This document shows, piece after piece, positions 58,975 to 64,000 of a DNA stretch of 64,000 bases. Location: NCBI GenBank assembly GCA_015061495.1, contig SUWL01000001.1, positions 1 through 64,000 of the forward strand, written 5' to 3'. The stretch comes from Lentisphaerota bacterium (lineage in GTDB: Bacteria; Verrucomicrobiota; Lentisphaeria; Victivallales; Victivallaceae). The position numbers and the translations under genes were made by a program. Each line of letters opens with the position of its first letter. Within the stretch, counting starts at the first letter, position 1. The notes below the pieces were generated by a model. It had not been told where the DNA came from, ran no database searches, and saw nothing but the letters and a program-made list of their open reading frames with translations.

Positions 58975-60948
58975 TTAACGGAATGTTTCCGCCAGAGCAT
59001 CCAGTTTTGCCAGATAGCAGGCGGTATTTTCATTGCGTTCAGCGGGGGCATTTTCCAGGAGGCAGCTGTTATCGACCACCGCCACTTTGGCTTTGGTACC
59101 GGTGATGTAGAAGCGTACTTTATCTCCGGCACGGAATTTTTTGCCGGAAGCCAGAGCCAGCTCGTACGCGGCGGCACGGCGGGTTTTTCCGGCGGCAAGT
59201 TTGCGTTTGTAATTTTCCGGTGAATCGCTTAAAACTTCGCTTTTAGCGAGATCTTCAAGTGGGACGGTGCGATTTTCCAATGCGTTTTTCCAGTAGAGAT
59301 AAGCATTTTCCACAGCGTGCGGATCACCGTGGAGTTTGCCTTTGACCGCTGCCAGAATGAATTTCCGCTGAAATGGTTCAAGCGCGCGGGATTTCAGTGC
59401 GGCACCGGTCAGTGAAATCGTGCCGTCGGCGGCAAGCAGAGCATAATTTTTAGCTTTATAAGAGTACATCGCCGGATATTCCGCGTCAAACTCCAATTCG
59501 ATACCGGGCGGCAGTATTTGCTGTAATGCTTCATCCAGTGCTTTACTGCTGTTTTCCGGCTGCTGAAAATAGATCCCGTCGGTATCCATTTCTATGACCA
59601 CAGCACCGTGAGATTGCATGGTTTTGACCAGTTTCCCCAACAGTTCTCTGCCGGCGGCAGTGACCTTTTCCGCCAAATCATAATCATTGAAACAGCCTTG
59701 GGCGAAACCGAGGTAGCCGTAGAAGGAGTTGATCAGGATCTTGAACGAACTTTGCAAGGCGTTGACCTGCTGCTTTTCTTTTCCTTCCGGCAGGGTTTTT
59801 GCCCGGTCTTTTGCCGCCAGCCGGAATGAACGCAGCCGGGTCAGCAGTTCCAGAAATACTCCGGCATGATCCCGGGCGGGAGACTGGGCAAAAGAGAGCA
59901 GCAGCGACGGATAAAGTGAACGGACGTCGCAATGGCGCACCCGGTGGAAAATTCCGGAATTTTCCATATTTGCCAATGCTCCGGCGTACGGACGGGGTGC
60001 TTCGGGCAGGGGGATGGCACATTTGCGTTTCAGGTATTCCGCGATAAGCAGGGCATCCAGCGCACTGCCGGAACCCCGGAGCAGACACTCCTGAAATCCC
60101 AGCGGCAGTTCTCTGGTGCGGTAGAAGTATGCCGGGAGCAGTATTTCGGCAAGTTTGCCGATCACTTCTGCGCTGTTGCCTGCCCGGATGTTGAAATACT
60201 CCTGCAAGGTCGGCAGTTCAAAATCCTCCAGATCCCGGTGGACAGCATCAAAAAACTGCACCGCATGAAGCATGTCGGCAATATGTCTGCCCGGCAGAGA
60301 AAAACGCTGATAACTGTACTGTTTCTCTCCGGCGGAGTAACGGGACGGCCGGGAGGATAAAACTCCGCCGTTTCTGCCGAAGTCAAGCGGGATCTTATAC
60401 TTTTTCGCCTGCCTGACCAGCAGCGGCAGATCATCGCGGCAGCAGTTGAAACCGGTCAACAGATCGGGATCGAACTCTTTTATCCGGGCAATGAAGCACT
60501 CAATAATATTTTTTTCATCTCCGGTAAAGATGGTAGCTGCTCCGCTGCTGTCGGAGGTTTCTATGGCGGAAACGGTTTTGCCGTCATCGCTTTTTACGGA
60601 GAAATGCAACTGCCGAAGCCCGGTAAATCCGATATCTTCAAAGAGCCGCAGATCCAGTATGCTCAATGCCTGCTGCAAAGTATCCCGGAAAAACATCACT
60701 CCGGGGGCTTTTTTCAACTCTGCCGAAGCATTTTCGTACTCTTCAAAAGAGTTGAAAAAAGCCTGACGGCGGAAGAATCCTGCGCCGTCAAGCGTTTCTA
60801 TGGTGCAATTATCCACATCTACCGCCGCACCGTCGGCGAGCAGGACAAACGGGGAAAATGGCAACTCTTCCATGCGGAAAGAGTCTCCGGCATGGAAGTA
60901 AAGCTGCAATCCCCGGCTGCTGACCTCGGCGGCGACGATCTTTTTCAT
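58975..60948 (-). CDS. Family-B DNA polymerase with degenerate exonuclease motifs
   Basis: Motif A HCDVRSLYPSLLLS; motif B KILINSFYGYLGFAQG; motif C EMDTDGIYF; Exo II-like DPDLLTGFNCCRDDLPLL; no recognisable Exo I DxE or Exo III YxxxD. Confidence 0.88.
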   Translation of the reverse strand: MKKIVAAEVSSRGLQLYFHAGDSFRMEELPFSPFVLLADGAAVDVDNCTIETLDGAGFFRRQAFFNSFEEYENASAELKKAPGVMFFRDTLQQALSILDLRLFEDIGFTGLRQLHFSVKSDDGKTVSAIETSDSSGAATIFTGDEKNIIECFIARIKEFDPDLLTGFNCCRDDLPLLVRQAKKYKIPLDFGRNGGVLSSRPSRYSAGEKQYSYQRFSLPGRHIADMLHAVQFFDAVHRDLEDFELPTLQEYFNIRAGNSAEVIGKLAEILLPAYFYRTRELPLGFQECLLRGSGSALDALLIAEYLKRKCAIPLPEAPRPYAGALANMENSGIFHRVRHCDVRSLYPSLLLSFAQSPARDHAGVFLELLTRLRSFRLAAKDRAKTLPEGKEKQQVNALQSSFKILINSFYGYLGFAQGCFNDYDLAEKVTAAGRELLGKLVKTMQSHGAVVIEMDTDGIYFQQPENSSKALDEALQQILPPGIELEFDAEYPAMYSYKAKNYALLAADGTISLTGAALKSRALEPFQRKFILAAVKGKLHGDPHAVENAYLYWKNALENRTVPLEDLAKSEVLSDSPENYKRKLAAGKTRRAAAYELALASGKKFRAGDKVRFYITGTKAKVAVVDNSCLLENAPAERNENTACYLAKLDALAETFR

Positions 60949-61583
60949 CAGCAGATGACCGTGGCAAGCGCGAATCCTTCACCATTATCCATGGCGGCGG
61001 CGCTGGTTACAGGCTGTTCAAAGTCGGCGAAAACTCCGCCGTTGACCACGTAATGAGCGGCACAATCCTGACAGGCGGCATCGAAATCGCGGTCAACATT
61101 GCTGTCGCAGGGGGCATTTTTCTCATAGGTGGAAATATAACGTGCGACACCGGGTTCGAGGTCGAATTCCCGGACGAACAGTCCATCTTTGCGGATGATG
61201 CCCAGATAACCTTTTTGGGAGATCCGTCCGGCGACAGCGACGACCCGGGGGGTGTCCAGAGAATCTTTTTCATAATCCATTGCCAGCAAGCCAAGTGCGA
61301 TGGCATCACGTACCGGCATGCCCATGGCGATCTTTTCGGTGATGGGGTCGGTCTGGGAACCGTTGGTGGCAATTGCCCACTCTCCGGCGATCCGCAGGCA
61401 GTTGTAACTGATATACGGATTTTTGGCGAGGTCGCTTTCGGCGCCCGGGCGGGGGACGATAGCGATTTTTCCGTTATTTTCCACGGCCTGACGGTTGGGG
61501 AAAGAGCGGGATGACACGCGATACATGGCGCAAACCCGGTTGTCTTTGGTCATGCCGAATGCGACGATTCTTCCGATGTACAT
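60948..61583 (-). CDS. purO: IMP cyclohydrolase, archaeal PurO type
   Basis: MYIGRIVAFGMTKDNRVCAMYRVSSRSFPNR; NPYISYNCLRIAGEWAIATNGSQTDPITEKIAMGMPVRDAIALGLLAMDYEKDSLDTPRV. Confidence 0.9.
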   Translation of the reverse strand: MYIGRIVAFGMTKDNRVCAMYRVSSRSFPNRQAVENNGKIAIVPRPGAESDLAKNPYISYNCLRIAGEWAIATNGSQTDPITEKIAMGMPVRDAIALGLLAMDYEKDSLDTPRVVAVAGRISQKGYLGIIRKDGLFVREFDLEPGVARYISTYEKNAPCDSNVDRDFDAACQDCAAHYVVNGGVFADFEQPVTSAAAMDNGEGFALATVIC

Positions 61584-62676: not shown

Positions 62677-63572
62677 TACATCCTTGAATCAGGGCGCACG
62701 ATCTGGGTGCCTACGCCGTCTTCGGTAAAGATTTCCAGAAGCAGTGCATGGGGAATTCTGCCGTTGATCATGTGAACTTTATTGATGCCGGATTCCAGAG
62801 CTTTGACACACCCCTGAACTTTGGGGAGCATACCTCCGGAAAGGATCCCTTTTTGTACCAGATCGGGAATGTCGGTGGTACGGATGGTGGGGATGACCGA
62901 ATTTTCATCATCCCGGTCTGCCAGCACACCCGGGACATCACTTACGAAAACGAGTTTGCGGGCGTGGAGAGCTTCGGCGATTTTGCTGGCTGCGGTATCT
63001 GCATTGATATTGTAGATATTGCCGTCCAGTCCGGTACCCAGCGGAGTAACCACGGGGATCTTGCCGTCGGCGATTGCTTCCAGAATGGGGGAGGTATTTA
63101 CGCCGACGACTTTACCGACGAATCCGACATCTTCCTCCTTGCCGGTAACCGGATCGGAACTCATGGTTTTTTCGGCGCGGAGAACCTCTTTGCCGGAAAT
63201 GCCTATGGTATTGCCTCCGGCGGCAGTGGCGAGATCGACCAACTCTTTATTGACCTGATTATGCAGGACATCATCGACGACTTTGATCGTTTCTCCGCAG
63301 GTAAAACGCAAACCGTTGACGAATTTGACGGGGATGCCTTTTTCTTTCAAGGCGGCGGAAATCGCTTTGCCGCCGCCGTGGACGACGATGGGAGTAATGC
63401 CGATAGCTTCGAGCATGACGATATCGCGCATGGCGCCGGCGACCAGATCGGGATCTTCCATGACACTGCCGCCGAATTTAACGACTACCAGTGAATGGCG
63501 GAAGCGCTGGATATAGGGGAGTGCTTCGACCAGCACGTTGGCTTTACCGATCAATTTGTCCATAAAATTCAT
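62676..63572 (-). CDS. argB: Acetylglutamate kinase
   Basis: VVVKFGGSVMEDPDL; PIVVHGGGKAISAAL; GGMLPKVQGCVKALESGINKVHMINGR. Confidence 0.96.
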   Translation of the reverse strand: MNFMDKLIGKANVLVEALPYIQRFRHSLVVVKFGGSVMEDPDLVAGAMRDIVMLEAIGITPIVVHGGGKAISAALKEKGIPVKFVNGLRFTCGETIKVVDDVLHNQVNKELVDLATAAGGNTIGISGKEVLRAEKTMSSDPVTGKEEDVGFVGKVVGVNTSPILEAIADGKIPVVTPLGTGLDGNIYNINADTAASKIAEALHARKLVFVSDVPGVLADRDDENSVIPTIRTTDIPDLVQKGILSGGMLPKVQGCVKALESGINKVHMINGRIPHALLLEIFTEDGVGTQIVRPDSRM

Positions 63573-64000
63573 GATTTGAGTTCCTTATTTTTTATCTCCG
63601 CCTGTCTGCGGGAAAATTCACATCCGCAATAATTCTGCCGGTAAAAATTGTGTTCCCGGGCAAAATTTCTGCCGATCAAATAACCATTTTGTTTTTTGAA
63701 GTCGATTTTCTCAAAGTTCTCATAGCGGCTGCCGATCTCAAAGATCACGGAACTGGATTTGCGCGGGCTCACGGTCAAAGTAGTGGCAAATGCCATATCT
63801 CCAGATGTTTGTCCGGTACGGCCGAGGTTGAATTCAAAACACTTGCGGCATCTTTTGCCGCCTTCCGGTTCATCTTCCAGACCGCGGACTGCATCCAGCC
63901 ATTTTTCGTGATCGTAAGGATCGATGATCAACTGCAAACGGTAATATTCTGCCAGAAAACGGACCGGTGCGAGGCGTTTTTCAAACTCCTCTGCCGAGTC
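63569..64000 (-). CDS. queH: Epoxyqueuosine reductase QueH, partial (N-terminus beyond the right edge)
   Basis: Frame open to base 64000 (DSAEEFEKRLAPVRFLAEYYRLQLIIDPYDHEKWLDAV...); EGGKRCRKCFEFNL; FATTLTVSPRKSS; NYCGCEFSRRQ. Confidence 0.88.
   Translation of the reverse strand, partial: DSAEEFEKRLAPVRFLAEYYRLQLIIDPYDHEKWLDAVRGLEDEPEGGKRCRKCFEFNLGRTGQTSGDMAFATTLTVSPRKSSSVIFEIGSRYENFEKIDFKKQNGYLIGRNFAREHNFYRQNYCGCEFSRRQAEIKNKELKS

Follow-up and report, generated by a model that had tools for sequence, protein, structure and literature searches.

The stretch of DNA under study, 64,000 nucleotides long and called here the window, comes from a gut bacterium related to Victivallis and encodes a family-B DNA polymerase (PolB) whose proofreading site is gone and whose copying site is kept. 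The open reading frame begins with ATG and contains no internal stop, and a Pfam search recognizes in its product a DNA_pol_B domain (E 5.9e-21) and a DNA_pol_B_exo1 match (E 4e-7) limited to residues 135-230. It is the sole PF00136 protein found in the genome (2.67 Mb, 123 contigs). The identified neighbours of polB in the window consist of purO, argB and aroC, the latter two located upstream of the purO-polB pair, and an NAD(P)H-hydrate dehydratase gene; none of them is lexA, iRadA, PPB2 or any other gene recognisable as part of a mutasome. The window purO matches the archaeal purO models NF003167 and TIGR01922, in a bacterial genome. The only PADLOC match in the window, a homing-endonuclease model lying over the polymerase region (E 5e-14), was taken as general PolB similarity and its reading as a defence system was rejected, and an Rfam search of the window for RNA features gave 0 matches. 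The coordinates are collected in Table 1.

Table 1. Position of polB, its motifs and the overlapping purO gene in the window.
Feature	Position	Strand	Basis
PolB, family-B DNA polymerase (G3 type) of 657 aa, predicted exonuclease-deficient	58975..60948	-	ORF, Pfam, alignment, kinship
purO, IMP cyclohydrolase; stop overlaps the polB start (TGATG)	60948..61583	-	PF07826, E 1e-57
Exo I position, LHFSVKSD, residues 114-121; D-x-E replaced by S-x-K	60586..60609	-	alignment
Exo II-like GFNCCRDDLPL, residues 166-176; N168 and D173 kept	60421..60453	-	alignment
Junction, about residues 264-270; Exo III segment of relatives (..RTYVDG..YALDDVRET..) absent	60139..60159	-	alignment, models
Motif A, DVRSLYPS, residues 341-348	59905..59928	-	ORF translation, alignment
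Motif B, KILINSFYG, residues 403-411	59716..59742	-	ORF translation, alignment
Motif C with preceding Glu, EMDTDG, residues 453-458; G3/Pol epsilon-N feature	59575..59592	-	alignment

With respect to the copying site, the protein displays the three motifs characteristic of family-B polymerases, A (DxxSLYPS), B (KxxxNSxYG) and C (DTD), which an earlier note on this DNA had already described as intact; both the translation and an alignment of 34 sequences, in which D341, N407, Y410, D455 and D457 are invariant, bear this out. The glutamate located just ahead of DTD, E453, is similarly invariant (34/34 sequences aligned).

The homologues of the window PolB come nearly all from the Lentisphaeria/Victivallales, and a handful of entries carry the label Kiritimatiellota or Verrucomicrobia. 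The exonuclease motifs were compared in an alignment of 93 rows, comprising 91 Lentisphaeria homologues subdivided into 63 proteins with a complete set of motifs (exo+), counted among the homologues that cover the exonuclease region, and 28 proteins devoid of it (exo-), the window PolB included. All 63 exo+ homologues possess the six residues D and E (Exo I), N and D (Exo II), Y and D (Exo III), as in E. coli Pol II. Both Exo I acids occur in 0/28 and a YxxxD Exo III in 0/28 of the exo- proteins, in all of which the segment bearing Exo III is deleted, and their motifs A, B and C remain unchanged save for scattered substitutions next to the catalytic residues. In the genus of the window bacterium, all intact homologues that were found are exo-. 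In the window PolB, HFSVKS stands at the Exo I position where relatives read QFDIET, so that the LHFSVKSDD string, which the earlier note had taken as the Exo I site, was correctly placed. The same note had found no Exo III segment, and an overlooked Exo III can be rejected, the segment being deleted relative to the 63 relatives. It had also pointed to an Exo II-like GFNCCRDD as the only remnant, and both the N and the D indeed survive in the alignment (GFNCCRDDLP, vs GHNIFRFDLP in relatives). These two residues, N168 and D173, are what would speak for an exonuclease that is still active by means of displaced carboxylates; however, the Exo II residues vary among the exo- relatives (GYDFFRNDWE, GAELTSRLLP and others) and the Exo I pair and Exo III are gone, which makes such residual activity highly improbable. 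A pseudogene, an assembly or sequencing error, or chance is ruled out by 27 further genomes that show the same state in an uninterrupted reading frame, and the constrained polymerase domain also contradicts a pseudogene.

AlphaFold2 models, built on an alignment of homologous loci, were obtained for the window PolB (mean pLDDT 90.8, pTM 0.84) and for the exo+ protein of V. vadensis (pLDDT 88.1, pTM 0.78). The strands and fold of the exonuclease domain are present in both models, and the long Exo III helix of the V. vadensis model (residues 291-312) has no counterpart in that of the window PolB. A Foldseek search of the PDB with the window model matched archaeal family-B polymerases best (TMq values of about 0.66-0.82; sequence identity 17-20%). 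A recovered set of exonuclease carboxylates would have overturned the exonuclease deficiency proposed in the earlier note, and neither the alignment nor the model contains one. The structural case for the loss of the site is made by the alignment together with the secondary structure of the models, which confirm, more strongly than first stated, that the window PolB has lost its 3'-5' proofreading site and retained its polymerase site.

Group G3 of the family-B polymerases has been defined by its kinship to Pol epsilon-N and by a glutamate in motif C, Salinibacter phages being named among its carriers (PMC7544198, Kazlauskas 2020). It forms the second largest group of bacterial PolB, described as uncharacterised and proofreading-competent, with a conserved exonuclease site (PMC12926913, Timinskas 2026). 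The motif C glutamate is common to the window PolB and to the Salinibacter phage and Deinococcus proteins, but not to E. coli Pol II. Moreover, the V. vadensis homologue shows 37% identity over 96% with a Salinibacter phage G3 polymerase (E 3e-127), a tree joins the Lentisphaeria proteins with the Salinibacter phages (support 88/86), and the window PolB, about 40-49% identical to exo+ G3 proteins of the Lentisphaeria, groups with them. Judged from its sequence, the window PolB belongs to the bacterial G3 (Pol epsilon-N-like) polymerases, as a predicted exonuclease-dead variant resulting from a derived loss within the group. It resembles bacterial G3 in the motif C glutamate and in the N-terminal, exonuclease and polymerase domains, whereas the group has been described with an exonuclease site and a beta-clamp motif and the window clade lacks the conserved 3'-5' exonuclease site. 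Apparently exonuclease-dead members of a group described as proofreading-competent are what is new here. QxxLF-like tails are typical of beta-clamp binding; a simple pattern finds them at the C-terminus of 20/63 exo+ proteins (e.g., L045, L049, L063) and of 1/28 exo- proteins, as a weak match.

Two other groups come into consideration. E. coli DNA polymerase II (G1), a proofreading and SOS-induced enzyme, has the same domain order as the window PolB and shares the six exonuclease residues with the exo+ relatives, but its Exo II reads GWN instead of their GHN and its motif C reads DTDS, which indicates a different group. Archaeal PolB2 and its bacterial counterpart G2, in which Exo I is not conserved and Exo III is missing (PMC7544198), look closer, and the window PolB, with the same two losses and a similarly kept polymerase fold, might be regarded as a G2 member acquired from archaea. 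However, PolB2/G2 proteins mostly lack the first aspartate of motif C, which in the window PolB keeps both aspartates of DTD as well as the G3 glutamate; they belong to a different clade, while the window PolB falls among exo+ Lentisphaeria G3 proteins (in a tree devoid of any verified B2 sequence); and they are encoded in iRadA-PPB2-PolB2 operons, neither partner of which was seen among the window neighbours. Membership in PolB2 is rejected by motif C, G3 kinship and gene context, and we consider it barely conceivable. The exonuclease loss of the G3 variant is, as far as the motifs tell, a parallel to that of PolB2.

A tree calculated from the columns of the polymerase domain alone, whose topology the exonuclease trait cannot shape, needs at least 2 changes to the exo- state. 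One concerns the genus of the window bacterium together with G075, the other a Victivallis relative (L099/L020) sister to the exo+ V. vadensis (support 95/82). That the exo- state arose only once is rejected, since 0% of the bootstrap trees show a single origin of it, the placement of L109 on a long branch being unsure. The exonuclease motifs are undamaged in every one of the outside relatives (Salinibacter phage, Deinococcus, Chroococcidiopsis and Nostoc phage), and loss is therefore the simpler reading of the direction of change. We infer that these bacteria lost proofreading on at least two occasions. The rates of substitution, compared on non-overlapping close pairs, agree with a site freed from constraint: the ratio of exonuclease dN to polymerase dN has a median of 1.57 in exo- pairs (n=10) vs 0.84 in exo+ pairs (n=20; p=6e-5), and the N-terminal and exonuclease domains evolve fast. 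The polymerase domain is still under purifying selection, with a dN/dS of about 0.07-0.16 for those exo- pairs with estimable dS, many dS values lying near saturation.

The surroundings of polB vary with the lineage. In six congeneric species the genes purO, polB and uvrD follow each other on the same strand, polB and uvrD being spaced by -1 to 9 bases, and in six PolB-less congeners (L120-L125) purO is directly followed by a UvrD-type helicase gene with no polB remnant in between. Loss of polB from the latter and insertion of polB in the others fit this arrangement equally. In the window genome uvrD is located elsewhere, and the neighbours of other exo- relatives (L103-L109) are unrelated. 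Around the exo+ homologues no neighbour family recurs in more than 8 loci, and a conserved repair operon was rejected on this basis. The congeners devoid of polB, along with the fast evolution of the N-terminal and exonuclease domains, could mean that PolB is a dispensable accessory polymerase under relaxed selection, on whose accuracy nothing depended, caught at a stage before gene loss. Such decay is unlikely, taking into account that the 28 exo- proteins retain their catalytic residues in motifs A, B and C, that purifying selection on the polymerase domain is clear, that the exonuclease fold is still predicted at high confidence, and that the purO-uvrD junctions can equally be read as the state before insertion.

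DNA polymerase I is widely conserved. A search of the genus detected it in 0/34 genomes, an absence which, the metagenome assemblies being incomplete, is strongest where it is repeated across the genus. Full-length Pol I occurs in 14/137 genomes of the order and only 1 of these 14 also has PolB, an anticorrelation (Fisher p 2.7e-6) that is uncorrected for relatedness and rests on about five lineages. Most genomes of the order, some of them >95% complete, show no full-length Pol I. Both enzymes seem to be absent from many Victivallales, and PolB can therefore not be an obligatory stand-in for Pol I. A standalone 5'-3' nuclease is common in the genomes of the order and present in that of the window, the absence of Pol I accompanied by a solo nuclease having already been reported for part of the Verrucomicrobia (PMC12926913). 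Family searches of the window genome, covering polymerase families other than X in an assembly about 89% complete, found one DnaE and one DinB-like Y-family polymerase gene.

The most likely explanation, to which we give about an even chance, is that a G3 PolB has lost proofreading and serves as an accessory repair or gap-filling polymerase, possibly mutagenic, in cells without Pol I. With the Exo I acids substituted and the Exo III segment deleted, the exonuclease fold persists as a scaffold; PolB would extend 3' ends across the gaps that arise in nucleotide-excision repair, mismatch repair and primer removal, and the partner functions would be supplied by the standalone 5'-3' nuclease and UvrD. 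Devoid of proofreading, the enzyme should more readily extend mismatches and lesion-terminated primers, and some mutagenic or bypass synthesis would be an expected by-product. In E. coli, UvrD works with Pol I in excision repair, and repair synthesis is preferred because polB adjoins uvrD in some congeners. Distribution and gene order form the basis of the proposed role, against which stand the many genomes with neither enzyme, the unrelated neighbours of other exo- relatives and the location of uvrD elsewhere in the window genome. The Pol I of such bacteria as H. pylori and B. subtilis, a repair and gap-filling enzyme that lost its 3'-5' exonuclease and with it proofreading, is probably a functional analogue, but it is a family-A enzyme with its own 5'-3' nuclease, whereas here a family-B enzyme is accompanied by a nuclease encoded by a separate gene.

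The earlier note had gone further, in that it considered the protein suited to error-prone or lesion-bypass synthesis. A dedicated translesion or mutagenic polymerase, in which, as in archaeal PolB2 and Pol zeta, loss of proofreading was selected because primers can then be extended beyond lesions, would agree with the repeated independent loss, with the translesion synthesis performed by PolB2/G2 proteins of the same loss pattern (PMC7544198; PMC11791011), and with the part taken in lesion bypass by the Pol I enzymes of H. pylori and B. subtilis, which do not proofread (PMC12926913). However, the identified window neighbours comprise no gene of the lexA, iRadA or PPB2 type, no family recurs widely beside the exo+ homologues, the coupling to purO with argB and aroC upstream represents a housekeeping setting, and the genome already possesses a separate Y-family gene of the DinB-like type. 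The absence of Pol I fits ordinary repair or gap filling without proofreading at least as well as lesion bypass. Of the earlier interpretation, the bacterial PolB with its proofreading site lost and its polymerase site kept stands, and the dedication to lesion bypass becomes rather unlikely.

A more far-reaching version of the repair role, offered tentatively and with odds clearly below even, is that the Pol epsilon-N-like PolB of the Victivallales took over chromosomal repair and Okazaki gap filling from Pol I and then repeatedly shed proofreading. If true, this would represent a bacterial lineage that fills its gaps mainly with a family-B polymerase devoid of proofreading and coupled to UvrD. 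The apparently exonuclease-dead G3 members found beside close exo+ relatives, among which V. vadensis is an isolated strain, offer a natural comparison pair, which bears on the purpose of proofreading in an accessory polymerase and on PolB standing in for Pol I.

Two minor observations concern other sequences. A small open reading frame located upstream of argB in the window (63569-63937) resembles, by eye, the end of a QueH-type epoxyqueuosine reductase. A family-B polymerase from a Haloprofundus plasmid (L118:599-2710), with Exo I and Exo III unaligned and motif C reading IVD, looks PolB2-like.
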